From NCBI GenBank assembly GCA_016212295.1, contig JACRGO010000183.1:1-9346 (forward strand): 9,346 bases of DNA. Direction: 5' to 3'. The notes beneath the pieces were generated by a model that was not told where the DNA came from, did no database searches, and worked only from the letters and a program-made list of their open reading frames with translations. Both the position numbers and the translations under genes were made by a program. This stretch comes from Nitrospinota bacterium. GTDB taxonomy: Bacteria > Nitrospinota > Nitrospinia > JACRGO01. Positions 922 to 8,930 of this stretch are shown here, piece after piece; position 1 is the stretch's first letter; each line of letters starts with the position of its first letter.

Positions 922-1314
922 CTAGGTCGCGCCATGAAATTTTTTCCAGGTTTCCTCTATGCTTTCCTTTACCTGATTTCTCGGCATGTCCTTCGGGATG
1001 TAGTTAGCGGCGCCGAGGTTGAAGCAATCCTCAATGGAATCGAGGTCCCTATGCGCCGTGAGCATTATGATCACCGCGTCCGGAAACTCCGCCTTCAATT
1101 CCCTCAAAACCTCTTCTCCGTTTTTTTCCGGCATATTGATATCCAGAAGGAGGAGGCCGGGTCTGAGATCTTTATACATGGCGATGGCCTCCAATCCGTT
1201 TTTCGCCTCCCCGACCACCTCGAAATCAGTGGATCTCAAGGTGGCGGCCATGAGTTTCCTCATTGAGGCGTCGTCATCGGCTATCAAGACGCTTTTTTTA
1301 ACTTTGTCCGTCAT
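922..1314 (-). CDS. Stand-alone CheY-like response regulator
   Basis: This is a 130-aa single receiver domain with no output domain. The acidic pocket DDD is at residues 13-15, the phospho-acceptor Asp58 lies in LLLDINMP, Thr86 is in MLTAH, and the invariant Lys108 is in YIPKDMP, so all receiver residues needed for phosphorylation are present. Proteins of this type act in the cytoplasm by binding a partner after phosphorylation by a histidine kinase; no kinase or chemotaxis gene is in view. The start ATG overlaps the rubrerythrin stop (ATGA, 1314-1311), indicating translational coupling in one operon. The C-terminus is odd: shifting frame near a run of six T (940-945, plus strand) would replace the last residues with about 20 more, ending LAKIAESVRADVLGK at a TAG at 880-878. 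The end of the gene may therefore be frameshifted, or the true end may be at 878. The receiver call is firm; the pathway is unknown. Confidence 0.93.
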   Translation of the reverse strand: MTDKVKKSVLIADDDASMRKLMAATLRSTDFEVVGEAKNGLEAIAMYKDLRPGLLLLDINMPEKNGEEVLRELKAEFPDAVIIMLTAHRDLDSIEDCFNLGAANYIPKDMPRNQVKESIEETWKKFHGAT

Positions 1315-1850
1315 TTAAAATGCCTCTTCAGCAAGCCGTCAAGTATTTTGGCGTGCCTGGCCTCGTCCTCGGCCGCGATCCTGAAAAACCCGGAAAGTTC
1401 GTCCAGCCCCTGCGCCTTGGCCAGCGAAGCCGCCTCGTTCTTTCCCTTGTGGGCGCCTCTTTCCCCTGCCAGCATCTGCTCCATGTCCTTTTTGAGATCA
1501 TCCGCTATCTGGTTGCCGGCGTCCAGCTTGGACTTGAGGTCATTTATCTTGCTCCCGCGCTGAATGAAGTTGGCCCCATGATATGCCTCCTCCTGGGCTA
1601 TCCTGTAAAGGGCCTCCGCCACCTCTCCCATTCCCAGGGTTTGGGCCTTAAGCGCCATGGCCATGTAATGGGTCACCTCCCAGGTCTCACCCTTTATATT
1701 GGCCTCAAGATAACCGGCAAGGTCCATTACCCTTTTTTCTCCGGCGGCCTCCACGAACTTTTCCCTGGAAGCATAACAAACCGGGCAGGTTTCCGGGGCC
1801 GCTTCTCCAGTGTGCATATAACCGCAAACCGAGCATTTCCATTTCTTCAT
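1311..1850 (-). CDS. Reverse rubrerythrin (N-terminal rubredoxin-like domain)
   Basis: This 179-aa non-haem iron protein begins with a rubredoxin-like zinc/iron knuckle (C6xxC9 and C22xxC25), followed by a ferritin-like four-helix domain (about 45-175). The domain order is the reverse of classical rubrerythrin. Candidate di-iron ligands are visible: Glu55/Glu58 in helix 1, EEAYH at 87-91, Glu130 in helix 3, and EDEARH at 161-166. Proteins of this family reduce hydrogen peroxide in the cytoplasm of anaerobes, using electrons from rubredoxin or NADH-linked reductases. Translation starts at ATG 1850 behind a near-perfect AGGAGGA seven bases upstream, which points to high expression. It is the first gene of a two-gene operon with the CheY-like receiver, the stop and start overlapping by four bases. 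A promoter with a palindrome over its -10 lies at 1921-1949. The family call is confident; no ligand appears to be missing. Confidence 0.95.
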   Translation of the reverse strand: MKKWKCSVCGYMHTGEAAPETCPVCYASREKFVEAAGEKRVMDLAGYLEANIKGETWEVTHYMAMALKAQTLGMGEVAEALYRIAQEEAYHGANFIQRGSKINDLKSKLDAGNQIADDLKKDMEQMLAGERGAHKGKNEAASLAKAQGLDELSGFFRIAAEDEARHAKILDGLLKRHFK

Positions 1851-2814: not shown

Positions 2815-3105
2815 ATGGAAAGACAAGAGACTGTAAGGAAGGATATTATCGCGAGGCTTGAAGAGCGGACCCTATCCGCCAAGGAGATATCCGGCGCTGT
2901 CGGGGTGCGGGAAAGGGAGGTTTATGAGCACCTGGAGCATATAAAGAAATCGTTGGAAAGAGGCGAATCAAGATTAAAGGTACAACCCGCCGAATGCAAG
3001 AAATGCGGCTTTACGTTTCAAAAGAGGGAGAGGATGAAAAAACCTGGCAAGTGTCCAATCTGCCGGGGCCAGTCCATTGCGGGGCCTTTTTTTTATATTG
3101 GATAA
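2815..3105 (+). CDS. HTH regulator fused to C-terminal zinc ribbon (COG3357-like)
   Basis: This 96-aa predicted DNA-binding protein has an N-terminal winged-helix-like segment (residues 5-50), with the helix-turn-helix around SAKEISGAVG and REREVYEHLEHI, followed by a four-cysteine zinc ribbon, CKKC at 61-64 and CPIC at 80-83. The layout matches the family annotated as predicted transcriptional regulators with an HTH and a zinc ribbon, known from archaea and some bacteria. It probably binds DNA in the cytoplasm; its targets are unknown. No Shine-Dalgarno precedes the ATG; AAATTTCTAAT sits directly before it, with a -10-like TAAATT ending six bases upstream, so the message may be leaderless. 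The gene at 3118 follows after 12 bases, probably in the same operon. The family assignment rests on architecture and recall of the family. Confidence 0.85.
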   Translation: MERQETVRKDIIARLEERTLSAKEISGAVGVREREVYEHLEHIKKSLERGESRLKVQPAECKKCGFTFQKRERMKKPGKCPICRGQSIAGPFFYIG

Positions 3106-4049: not shown

Positions 4050-4140
4050 TGGCCGCAACCAAAATAAAATTTCGACCCCATTGAGACGTTTACGGTTGAA
4101 AAACTTGCGCGGAAAACGAAATTTCTGAACGCAATAATAT
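4050..4140 (+). repeat. Upstream block shared with the thioredoxin-like gene, copy A
   Basis: TGGCCGCAACCAAAATAAA (4050-4068) is identical to 5916-5934, and AAATTTCTG then AATAATATA before the start are also shared. In this copy the two parts are separated by about 50 extra bases bounded by AAATTTCG (4067-4074) and its exact inverse CGAAATTT (4117-4124). The block ends at the GTG start of the glycosyltransferase, which has no Shine-Dalgarno. It could be a shared regulatory leader or a repeat. Confidence 0.6.
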
Positions 4141-5908: not shown

Positions 5909-5951
5909 GGCGGCATGGCCGCAACCAAAATAAATTTCTGCGTAATAATAT
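5909..5951 (+). repeat. Upstream block shared with the glycosyltransferase gene, copy B
   Basis: This copy has TGGCCGCAACCAAAATAAA at 5916-5934, running without interruption into TTTCTG and AATAATAT before the ATG at 5952. Just before it, GCGGC-ATG-GCCGC forms a small GC-rich hairpin absent from copy A. The gap 5845-5951 between the divergent genes also has a TATAAT on the minus strand (5891-5886) that could serve the phosphodiesterase, though no clear -35 is present. Confidence 0.6.
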
Positions 5952-6503
5952 ATGGAAGCAACACTGGAACAAAACAAACAGGCGTCTATCGCGGAGACCT
6001 TTAACCTCAACAAGATCATCCTGCTGGTCGCCGCCGCCTTGGTGCTCCGCGCGTTTTTCGTGTACGAGGAGCCATTGGTTCCCCTGAAGGTGGGAGACCA
6101 TGTGCCGGATTTCCATCTCTCCCTTTTTAACGGGAAACAGTTAAACCAAAAGGATATCATGGGCGCACCGCACGTCTTCTTCTTTTACGCCAACTGGTGT
6201 CCCTGCGCCAATTTCTCCATCCAGTTTTTTAACAAGGCCCACGTGGAATACTCAGGCAAGGGGATAAAATTCGTGGCGGTGGGATTTCAGGACAAAAAAG
6301 ACGCCTTGGAATCCTTCATCCAGCGCCACCAAGTACCCTTTACAGCCGGACCGGACGAAAAAAGCGATGTCAGTAAACTCTTTGGAATCGCCACTCCTCC
6401 CACAACGGTCTTCGTGAACTCGGATGGAAGCGTCGCGTCCATCTTCTCCGGTAAAATCAAGAAATACTCTGAATTAACAGAATATCTGGAGAAGCTTTTA
6501 TAA
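5952..6503 (+). CDS. Membrane-anchored TlpA/ResA-like thioredoxin with CxC site
   Basis: This 183-aa protein has one N-terminal membrane anchor (about residues 20-37) and then a thioredoxin/redoxin fold (44-183) expected outside the cytoplasmic membrane. Family marks are VGDHVPDFHL at 47-56, FFFYANWCPC at 76-85, the central FVAVGFQDKKDALESF, and the cis-proline segment IATPPTTVFVN with Pro149/150. The active site is unusual: W82-C83-P84-C85 gives Cys-Pro-Cys, one residue shorter than the normal C-x-x-C. The fold suggests a thiol-disulfide reductase for apocytochrome c or other exported proteins, or a peroxiredoxin-like activity; the CxC site makes the exact reaction uncertain. The next gene, two bases downstream, is a CcdA homologue, the usual electron donor for such proteins, so the pair is an operon. 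The start has no Shine-Dalgarno and follows the shared upstream block. Confidence 0.88.
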   Translation: MEATLEQNKQASIAETFNLNKIILLVAAALVLRAFFVYEEPLVPLKVGDHVPDFHLSLFNGKQLNQKDIMGAPHVFFFYANWCPCANFSIQFFNKAHVEYSGKGIKFVAVGFQDKKDALESFIQRHQVPFTAGPDEKSDVSKLFGIATPPTTVFVNSDGSVASIFSGKIKKYSELTEYLEKLL

Positions 6504-6505
6504 CC

Positions 6506-7186
6506 ATGTCCCCAGCCCTGGCCTTTTACGGCGGTCTACTCAACTTCTTCTCAATATGGATACTCTGCCTCCTGCAGATAGTCCCCTTCCTCTTTTCCTA
6601 TATGGTGGGCATGAGCCTGGCCGAAATCGGGGAAAGCAGCCAAAAAGAGAAGTTCACTGAAACCCTGACAGTGGTAATTTGCTCATTGTCCGGCTTCGGC
6701 TTTCTTTATTGCTCCCTCGGCGCCTCCACCACGAGATTCGCCTCGTTCCTGTTTCTTTACCAGTCCCTCCTCCTGCAGATAGGCGGAGTCCTTCTATTCC
6801 TTTGCTCAGCTTACTTCCTCGGCATTTTGAAAGTACCGGACGCCTTCCGGCTGCCGTTAAGGTTCATAGGAAGTTTTCTTGCCGGGGCCATCCTTGGGCT
6901 TGCCTACCAACCGTGCGTAACGCCTGCCTTGTCCGCCATCTACAACGCAATAAAGCGCCCTGGCACTTTTCCCCAGGGTTTTACCCTTTTGGTCTTTTAC
7001 ACTCTCGGTTTGCTGACAGCCTTGGGCATAGTGGGTTACGGCATGGTGTTCCTGTTCTCGCTGGATAAACTTAAAATACTCAGGAAGGCCGCGGTTAAAT
7101 TTTGCGGGCTTGCCCTGCTTTTTATCTCCGCGCTGCTCCTTCTGCAAAAGATGACGGTTTATAAGAGCATGCTGGTCAGAATGTAA
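6506..7186 (+). CDS. CcdA/DsbD-like transmembrane thiol transporter
   Basis: This 226-aa integral membrane protein has about six hydrophobic helices (roughly 5-34, 53-72, 82-107, 117-146, 157-185 and 194-214), the CcdA topology. The two redox cysteines are present: Cys21 in CLLQIVPFLFSY, aligning with the family's C-x5-P helix-1 motif, and Cys137 in AYQPCVTPALSAIY, matching the WTPC-GP motif of helix 4. CcdA proteins pass electrons from cytoplasmic thioredoxin through the membrane to an outside thioredoxin-like partner, here surely the preceding protein. ATG 6506 is two bases after that stop; GGAG about 15 bases upstream and the tight spacing suggest coupling. The residues before Cys21 (FFSIWIL) differ from the usual SP-C, so it is a divergent member. 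No terminator is evident; a degraded reading frame follows. Confidence 0.88.
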   Translation: MSPALAFYGGLLNFFSIWILCLLQIVPFLFSYMVGMSLAEIGESSQKEKFTETLTVVICSLSGFGFLYCSLGASTTRFASFLFLYQSLLLQIGGVLLFLCSAYFLGILKVPDAFRLPLRFIGSFLAGAILGLAYQPCVTPALSAIYNAIKRPGTFPQGFTLLVFYTLGLLTALGIVGYGMVFLFSLDKLKILRKAAVKFCGLALLFISALLLLQKMTVYKSMLVRM

Positions 7187-7439: not shown

Positions 7440-7760
7440 TTATTTGCGGCCCTTCGCGTTCAATAGTCATGAGTCTGCGCCTCTCTGCCCTCTGCTCCAA
7501 TTGAAAATTGTCAATTGAGAATTGGCTTACACCTTCCGTCCTCCGCCTTTTGCCAATGATTTAATGGCATTGACCCAATGACTGTTTTTGATTTCAGGTT
7601 TTAAATCCGCATTCCGCAATCCCAAATCCGCAATCATCCCCGTCTCCAGCAATTTCCAATTGTCAATCGTAAATTGACTCTGTCTTCCGCCTTCCGTCCT
7701 CCGTCTTCCGCCTTTCACTGCCCCCTGCCCCCTGCCCCCTCTGATACCTGCCTTTTCATT
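7440..7760. repeat. Low-complexity phrase-repeat island
   Basis: This stretch holds no gene. It is a patchwork of short motifs: CAATTGAAAATTGTCAATTG (7498-7517); variants of CCAATGA; CCGCATTCCGCAATCCC and AAATCCGCAATC (7607-7634); TCCAATTGTCAATCGTAAAT (7656-7675) followed by TGACTCTG; a run of TCTTCCGCC/TTCCGTCC variants (7681-7712); and three near-tandem CCCCTG units (7718-7740). All lie on one strand as pyrimidine-rich text, and several recur at 8362-8460 and 8859-8930. Such mosaics are typical of intergenic DNA in some Nitrospirota- and Planctomycetota-type genomes (recall). Confidence 0.7.
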
Positions 7761-7791
7761 GCTCGTTACAGATTGCAAATCTGTAACGAGC
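7761..7791. repeat. Perfect palindromic element, copy 1
   Basis: GCTCGTTACAGATT (7761-7774) and its exact complement (7778-7791) flank the three bases GCA. The 3' flank CGGAAACTTA resembles that of copy 3 at 8645-8680. With the copies at 8497 and 8645 this is a small dispersed family. Its REP-like character is inferred. Confidence 0.85.
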
Positions 7792-7840
7792 GGAAACTTA
7801 AGTCAAAAGCAGACTTGACCCTTTTCTTGTCTCTGTCCGC

Positions 7841-8290
7841 CTATAATACGCCTCTAGGCGGGAGGAGTTTTTCAATGAGGGACTTGAGGAATGAAAGTTC
7901 CTCATTCTGTGCCTCAAGGGAGGTTTCTATCTGGGTTAGTTTCTTCTGCTGATTCCAGAGTATCCGTCCCATGATCCCCATTAAGGAAAGGGCAACTGTA
8001 ATAAAAAGCCCCAACATCCATTGGAGGATATCGAACCGTCCGTTGATATCATCAAATCGCTTATTAGTTGACTCCTTGAGGTCATTAATCTGCTGCTGAA
8101 TGGCCCTCTGTCCTTCATCCAACCTTTTTATCTCTGCCTTTAATTCCTTAATATCACCACGGATATTTGCCAGACCTTCAATAATCTCTCTGTCGGATAT
8201 GCGAGGGGCAACTTCAACCGCAAGGACATTCGCGGAAGGATACATGGCGCAGAACGCGAGAGACAGGATAATGAGAAAGGCTTTCTTCAT
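7841..8290 (-). CDS. Secreted or membrane coiled-coil protein, family unknown
   Basis: The 149-aa product has, in order, an N-terminal signal or membrane segment (MKKAFLIILSLAFCAMY, residues 1-17, possible cleavage after ANVLA), a heptad-rich coiled coil (about 35-82, IRGDIKELKAEIKRLDEG then IQQQINDLKESTNKRFDDIN), one transmembrane helix (about 86-108, WMLGLFITVALSLMGIM), and a second coiled coil to the end (112-145). It is probably an oligomeric inner-membrane protein with the first coil outside. Proteins of this layout are widespread in Aquificota- and Desulfobacterota-type genomes without assigned function (recall). ATG 8290 is preferred over an upstream TTG at 8329 because that TTG is part of the -35 hexamer of a good promoter and would prepend a non-signal sequence. 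The gene is embedded in a repeat island. Confidence 0.8.
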   Translation of the reverse strand: MKKAFLIILSLAFCAMYPSANVLAVEVAPRISDREIIEGLANIRGDIKELKAEIKRLDEGQRAIQQQINDLKESTNKRFDDINGRFDILQWMLGLFITVALSLMGIMGRILWNQQKKLTQIETSLEAQNEELSFLKSLIEKLLPPRGVL

Positions 8291-8299
8291 GATGCCTAA

Positions 8300-8329
8300 A
8301 GTGTAGCCGCAATACGGGAGGAATGTCAA
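8300..8329 (-). promoter_or_regulatory. Promoter of the coiled-coil gene, near-leaderless
   Basis: On the minus strand a perfect TTGACA (8329-8324) and TACACT (8305-8300, 4/6 match) are 18 bases apart. The ATG at 8290 is only nine bases after the -10, so transcription would start within about three bases of the start codon. No Shine-Dalgarno is seen. Confidence 0.55.
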
Positions 8330-8361
8330 TTGGATTTTGGGTCTCGAATTTTATATTGGGG

Positions 8362-8431
8362 ATTTTAAACCCAAGTCCTTAATCCCTCAGTCTCCAGCGG
8401 CTTTTTAATTGTAAATCGTCAATTGACTCTG
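8362..8431. repeat. 70-bp direct repeat, copy 1
   Basis: This block runs from ATTTTAAACCCAAGTCC through TCTCCAGCGG to TCGTCAATTGACTCTG and recurs with few changes at 8859-8930. A shorter relative is at 7642-7691. After it come more phrases (TCTTCCGCC; GTCAACTGTTAACTG and AAAACTGTCAAC at 8455-8480). It is non-coding. Confidence 0.8.
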
Positions 8432-8496
8432 TCTTCCGCCTTCGCCCTTCCCTGTCAACTGTTAACTGAAAACTGTCAACCGCCTTTTTTACTGCT

Positions 8497-8521
8497 CGTT
8501 ACAGGTTTGCAACCTGTAACG
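8497..8521. repeat. Palindromic element, copy 2
   Basis: CGTTACAGGTT (8497-8507) and AACCTGTAACG (8511-8521) flank TGC. It differs from copy 1 by paired changes (GATT/AATC to GGTT/AACC) that keep the stem intact. Confidence 0.85.
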
Positions 8522-8568
8522 CATCTTCCGCCTGGATTTACAATCCGTGGAGAGGCCTGCCCGCGCCA

Positions 8569-8621
8569 CCTGCCTGCCGCGCTCCGCTTGGCGCAGGCAG
8601 GAGCAAAGCGCGGCAGGCAGG
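8569..8621. repeat. GC-rich hairpin with GCAGGCAGG arms
   Basis: CCTGCCTGCCGCGCT (8569-8583) pairs perfectly with AGCGCGGCAGGCAGG (8607-8621). The 23-base centre contains a further GCGCAGGCAGG copy. It would form a very stable hairpin in either strand. Similar elements are common in environmental genomes (recall). Confidence 0.8.
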
Positions 8622-8644
8622 GATTGAAAATCCCGATGGTATGG

Positions 8645-8669
8645 CGTTACAGATTGCAAATCTGTAACG
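8645..8669. repeat. Palindromic element, copy 3
   Basis: CGTTACAGATT (8645-8655) and AATCTGTAACG (8659-8669) flank GCA and are followed by AGCGGAACTTA. The core and right flank match copy 1 at 7761-7800. Confidence 0.85.
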
Positions 8670-8680
8670 AGCGGAACTTA

Positions 8681-8775
8681 TCAGGGCTAAAGCCCCGATA
8701 TGATGTTTGCCCATTAACCCCAGCCTTAAGGCTGGGGTTAATGGAGGCATTCTATGAATTGGGCTTTAGCCCTGA
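8681..8775. repeat. Nested double palindrome (cruciform-type)
   Basis: The outer arms TCAGGGCTAAAGCCC (8681-8695) and GGGCTTTAGCCCTGA (8761-8775) are perfect 15-bp complements. Inside them lies a perfect 34-bp palindrome, 8711-8744, centred on CCTTAAGG with outer ends CCATTAACCCC and GGGGTTAATGG. The element abuts palindrome copy 3, and together they make a composite of about 130 bases. The frame open across it is a by-product of the symmetry, not a gene. Confidence 0.9.
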
Positions 8776-8858
8776 CAGCGCCACGGCCAACAAACTTGCT
8801 CGGATTGTTTACCGGAACCGTCGCTTTTAAATTCAGGATTTTAGATTTTAGATTTGGA

Positions 8859-8930
8859 ATTTTAAACCCAAGCCCTTTCAATCCCTAAGTCTCCAACGGC
8901 TTTCCAATTGTAAATCGTCAATTGACTCTG
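8859..8930. repeat. 70-bp direct repeat, copy 2
   Basis: This is a near-copy of 8362-8431 with the same blocks (TTTTAAACCCAAG, AATCCCT, AGTCTCCA, TAAATCGTCAATTGACTCTG). The two copies bracket the palindrome cluster 8497-8775, so the whole cluster could move or recombine as a unit; that is inference. Confidence 0.8.

Follow-up and report, generated by a model that had tools for sequence, protein, structure and literature searches.

A natural Cys-Pro-Cys TlpA/ResA-like protein paired with an altered CcdA homologue in Nitrospinota: a possible reductant branch of cytochrome assembly

No signature of the thioredoxin fold is better known than CxxC; to our knowledge a second cysteine in the register of a CACA site is encountered mainly in laboratory variants. 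A redox-type Cys-Pro-Cys site like that of the protein described here, CPC-TlpA, is found in Mia40; however, Mia40 is a eukaryotic oxidase of unrelated fold. In E. coli TrxA, the change of CGPC to CACA gives a variant which, like the CACC variant, was found through restored periplasmic disulfide formation and forms Fe-S-bridged homodimers for which the CxC cysteines are essential (PMC2896474, PMC6210436). CPC-TlpA has the same C-x-C-A register (with Ala or Ser as the last residue) but differs from the engineered protein in being natural, membrane-anchored, of the ResA type and paired with a CcdA.

In System I cytochrome c maturation, electrons pass from DsbD or CcdA to CcmG, then to CcmH and finally to the apocytochrome (PMC3884852). 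Atypical heme motifs are served by dedicated sets with a CcmH-like member, such as NrfEFG and SirEFG (PMC6976685). ResA and CcmG, the apocytochrome reductants of System II and System I, share with CPC-TlpA the anchored thioredoxin domain, the cis-proline, the fold and the pairing with CcdA. In contrast to both, CPC-TlpA has a CPC site, Ala or Ser at the resolving position and Ser at the position of Glu80 of ResA, and it belongs to a clade of its own. As with CcmH/NrfF/SirF of the NrfEFG and SirEFG sets, an extra CcmH-like protein is tied here to an atypical heme-motif protein; the present set, however, has no extra heme lyase found alongside and has its own reductant pair.

The window analysed is the entire 9,346-base contig C143 of the 3.74 Mb draft genome G000 from the phylum Nitrospinota. 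On its forward strand, the ORF at 5952-6503 encodes CPC-TlpA (183 aa), in which an N-terminal TM helix (aa about 2-36) is followed by a ResA-type thioredoxin domain. The next ORF (6506-7186, forward strand) starts two bases past the CPC-TlpA stop and encodes a putative CcdA/DsbD-beta-like membrane protein of 226 aa, divergent and with six predicted TM helices, which is called CcdA' here. Elsewhere the window holds a rubrerythrin with an N-terminal rubredoxin-like domain (1311-1850, reverse strand) and a PF0610-like winged-helix/zinc-ribbon protein (2815-3105, forward strand). The dispersed repeat GGCCGCAACCAAAATAAATTT lies at 5917-5937, just upstream of the CPC-TlpA gene, and at 4051-4071. With at most one mismatch it occurs at 116 places in G000 (58 per strand; 0 for a reversed-pattern control), and several copies form inverted pairs about 109 bases apart. 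An ORF on contig C60 of the same genome (L102 4399-4773) contains the stretch HYHIVFGTKK, which resembles REP-associated transposases. From 7500 to 8930 the window is a patchwork of direct as well as palindromic repeats in diverged form, among them GTTACAGATTGCAAATCTGTAACG and a 51-base unit present three times.

CPC-TlpA matched the Pfam family AhpC-TSA at 1.3e-18, the NCBIfam ResA model NF002854 at 8.3e-23 and ResA in the PDB at 2.6e-23 (HMMER). With NF002854 it scored 81 bits, below the curated cut-off of 170, and thus ResA identity itself is not claimed. The AF2 model, a monomer with a pLDDT of 92.6, has an intact helix from residue 84 and is matched by ResA 1st9 with a Z of 22.5 and an rmsd of 1.4 over 136 residues; its nearest folds are ResA, ahead of peroxiredoxins. 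In two of the structure predictions, one row from a plasmid record was left out. The cis-proline, Pro150 (6399-6401, forward strand), is invariant across every TlpA row aligned, and the membrane anchor typical of the family is present. By its modelled thioredoxin fold and its ResA-type profile, CPC-TlpA is thus a member of the TlpA/ResA family, in line with the TlpA/ResA-like fold with a cis-proline proposed in the first-pass annotation. The six CPC proteins known from the genomes described below form a single clade (support 100/100).

The active site departs from the CxxC of this family. The W-C-P-C motif reported by the first-pass annotation is encoded by TGG TGT CCC TGC at 6195-6206 (residues 82-85), and the protein reads W82-C83-P84-C85-A86-N87-F88-S89, with W82 to A86 at 6195-6209 on the forward strand. 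The motif had been described as one residue shorter than usual, which is correct for the motif but not for the protein chain. No gap appeared at this place in HMMER alignments with ResA structures, in MAFFT alignments with other TlpAs or against an HMM of 24 CxxC relatives. Therefore C83 is the first cysteine of CxxC, and C85 occupies the second x, one position upstream of the usual resolving cysteine. That last position is Ala in the window copy and in G002 and Ser in the family f9, and all six proteins read CPC[A/S]. A one-residue deletion in CxxC, the geometry implied by the earlier description, is ruled out by the ungapped alignments, the chain being no shorter there; the second cysteine is shifted instead. 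The position of Glu80 of ResA, which is Glu in 24/24 CxxC relatives compared, is Ser in the CPC proteins (6/6; Ser89 in the window copy, 6216-6218, forward strand).

Among the 77 Nitrospinota genomes of the phylum search set, six carry the WCPC-TlpA/CcdA' pair (G000, G002, G071, G074, G075 and G076), and these belong to two families. The CcdA' orthologues are 56% (G002) and 39-41% (G071, G074, G075, G076) identical, and a WCPC TlpA lies directly upstream of each of them. In the TlpA profile search the six CPC proteins scored 317-363 bits, and the next match in the phylum scored 88 bits; CxxC was the motif of every TlpA read at the best-hit loci. The tryptophan, both cysteines and the proline are retained in 6/6 orthologues. 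Where computable, dN/dS was 0.10-0.24, i. e. the gene is under purifying selection, and the Cys and Pro codons vary synonymously. Hence the second cysteine is conserved in all six genomes, and a sequencing indel masking a C-x-x-C site is ruled out by their agreement, so that neither of the refuting conditions named in the first-pass annotation applies. Some TlpA matches in other Nitrospinota (G069:C13, G067:C97, G068:C125, G064:C30 and G018:C5) contain one in-frame TGA, possibly reflecting selenocysteine or frame errors. A scan of the genome collection with the short patterns of P0002 returned Nitrospinota matches only, viral-contig scans gave 0 relatives, and plasmid searches found annotated ResA/TlpA/CcdA genes only, both loci read being ordinary. 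The literature searched, which was open-access text, held no natural CPC TlpA.

For the window copy of CcdA' no Pfam match was obtained at E<=0.1. A six-member CcdA' profile matched T. thermophilus CcdA (5vkv) at 1.5e-15, and CcdA' matched paralogous CcdA at about 1e-19, which points to homology with the CcdA/DsbD TM domain. Like this domain, CcdA' has six predicted TM helices, and its two redox cysteines fall in the helices where they are expected. Cys21 (6566-6568, forward strand) lies in SIW[IF][LF]CLxQ, where the canonical motif is SPCVLP, and Cys137 (6914-6916, forward strand) lies in YQPC[VI]TP, which retains the canonical second CcdA motif. Both cysteines are invariant in 6/6, so that the divergent CcdA of the first-pass annotation stands, with its cysteines, two bases behind its partner. 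Unlike in 5vkv, the first motif has a three-residue insertion before the cysteine and has lost its first prolines, i. e. the Pro-flanked PCxxP is missing. In the CcdA' model (pLDDT 80) the helices break at both cysteines, which lie in two separate TM helices; the top Foldseek match was 5vkv, though weak (E 0.07).

In f9 the pair is part of a gene run in the order CTQCH protein (about 183 aa), CPC-TlpA, CcdA', a 270-aa protein, a CcmH-like protein (CcmH'), an FGE-sulfatase-like protein, a CX3CH protein and an ordinary ResA (WC[YH]PC). Four members of this set (CcmH', CTQCH, 270-aa and CX3CH) were profile-searched over the same 77 genomes. CcmH' and the cytochrome-like CTQCH protein each occur in exactly the six pair-bearing genomes and in none other. 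The anchored 270-aa protein was found in five of the six, the exception being G002, whose CcmH' copy lies at a contig end; the heme-type CX3CH protein was likewise found in five, the exception being G075, whose operon contig is just 10 kb long. Both gaps thus fall at or close to the end of a contig. None of the set members searched occurs in g22 or g23, the sister genera within f9. An identical six-of-77 set would arise by random placement with odds of about 4e-9; as the genomes are related, this corresponds to about two independent occurrences. In G000 the set is spread over four contigs, with the pair on C143, the 270-aa protein and CcmH' on C60, the CTQCH protein on C125 and, on C78, the CX3CH protein with an ordinary ResA after it.

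CcmH' scored 22-27 bits against PF03918, around the cut-off of 25. Its CPCECP motif was considered as a parallel cysteine shift, which was rejected: the ordinary CcmH of f9 is spaced alike (CLCGCG......C...CG), and CcmH' thus looks like a divergent paralogue rather than a new cysteine design. The 270-aa protein (L102 on G000:C60, 929-1678; L105, 7921-8772) has a single TM helix and two invariant cysteines in C-x9-C spacing (C81 and C91 in the G000 copy). It was considered as a detached DsbD alpha domain, an identity that is not claimed given zero Pfam or PDB matches. In the CX3CH protein (L105, 10235-11053; L106, 4790-5608; L107, 5735-6553; L137, 2447-3304; L138, 622-1494), the conserved KCYR[KR]CHG contains CX3CH in place of CXXCH, and the protein is weakly related to the heme domain of quinohemoprotein amine dehydrogenase and to SorB. 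As in dedicated cytochrome c maturation sets, an extra CcmH-like component is therefore co-inherited with an atypical heme-motif protein. G000 also encodes CcmE, CcmF and CcmC together with an ordinary WCYPC CcmG, and a 680-aa DsbD that adjoins a WCPPC TlpA, all named by family match, position and size. Given these proteins, the CPC pair is additional. No ordinary CcmH turned up in G000, where the CcmF contig ends.

These results suggest that CPC-TlpA, the altered CcdA and the cytochrome-assembly-like gene set make up a separate, specialised route for certain cytochromes. We give a probability of about one half to a dedicated extracytoplasmic thiol-reducing relay from CcdA' to CPC-TlpA and on to CcmH' and the apocytochrome. 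Electrons would cross the membrane through C21 and C137 of CcdA' and pass to the anchored CPC-TlpA, in which C83 would be the nucleophile and C85 its partner. The next acceptor would be the co-inherited CcmH', through which the electrons would reach the cysteines of the co-inherited cytochrome-like apoproteins (the CTQCH and CX3CH proteins); these could thereby be kept reduced so that the shared System I machinery can attach heme to them. What speaks for this relay is observed in sequence, fold, conservation and motif register, in the altered CcdA, in the co-occurrence and in the adjacency in f9; we count for it in particular the conserved pair in six genomes of two families, the matching presence pattern, the f9 order and the System I precedent. 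The direction of electron flow, the identity of the substrates and the link to heme attachment are what we infer. Several findings count against it: the set is scattered in G000 and G002, so that linkage there is co-occurrence in two lineages; the f9 run has no dedicated CcmF-type heme lyase, family matches of which lie elsewhere; these genomes have an ordinary CcmG with CxxC; Glu80 of ResA is missing from CPC-TlpA; and no relative of the 270-aa protein is recognisable in Pfam or the PDB. A bolder reading, which we regard as less likely than not, is that a natural CACA-register thioredoxin and its own altered CcdA form a separate reductant branch of cytochrome assembly specialised for heme proteins with a CX3CH motif or, going further still, that the protein is a natural periplasmic Fe-S-bridged CxC thioredoxin.

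It is unlikely that CPC-TlpA is instead a general ResA-like reductase with neutral variation at its active site and that the co-occurring genes reflect nothing but shared lineage history. Such a reading would fit the fold and the closest relatives, which are ResA, and the six sequences are one clade, so CPC may have a single origin. Yet C-P-C-x-N-x-S is invariant across the six orthologues at about 45% identity, CcdA' shows matched changes, and, besides the adjacency in f9, that family includes two sister genera, g22 and g23, from which every member searched is missing.

A natural counterpart of TrxA-CACA, with a [2Fe-2S] cluster bridging its dimer, or acting as a disulfide oxidase or isomerase and not as a reductase, is unlikely. 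The register is exactly that of TrxA-CACA, with Ala or Ser at the usual resolving position, and the engineered CACA and CACC variants form homodimers bridged by Fe-S. However, CPC-TlpA is encoded with a CcdA, i. e. a supplier of reductant, whereas the engineered protein needed none, and a membrane-anchored domain in the periplasm would need to obtain its cluster outside the cytoplasm. The model, too, is a monomer with its helix intact from residue 84, but clusters are beyond what AF2 can show.

Metal-binding sites often have the pattern CxC, and TlpA-type reductases serve copper-site assembly. Hence CPC could be a metal ligand or a copper-site reductant, as in TlpA/Sco, and function in metal-site assembly, e.g. 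in copper delivery to an oxidase. We consider this quite unlikely, as the co-inherited partners resemble cytochrome and CcmH proteins rather than oxidase subunits or copper chaperones, and no distal metal-ligand histidine is assignable in CPC-TlpA. Of the two functions proposed by the first-pass annotation, the distinct reductive pathway fits the conserved pair, the changed CcdA and the co-occurring CcmH-like and cytochrome-like genes, but the exported thiol peroxidase powered by CcdA is highly improbable: DsbD-powered peroxidases exist and the AhpC-TSA match would agree with one, but the PxxxT/SxxC signature is absent around either cysteine in 6/6 CPC proteins, no invariant Arg follows the motif among the six orthologues, and ResA ranks above peroxiredoxins in the fold comparison.

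Since the natural CPC site is conserved and its electron donor is matched to it, the pair lends itself directly to studying the effects of a cysteine shift on specificity and redox potential. If the proposed relay from CcdA' through CPC-TlpA is true, a reductant would be a third kind of specialised part, beyond the heme lyase, in dedicated cytochrome c assembly, here in a little-studied phylum.
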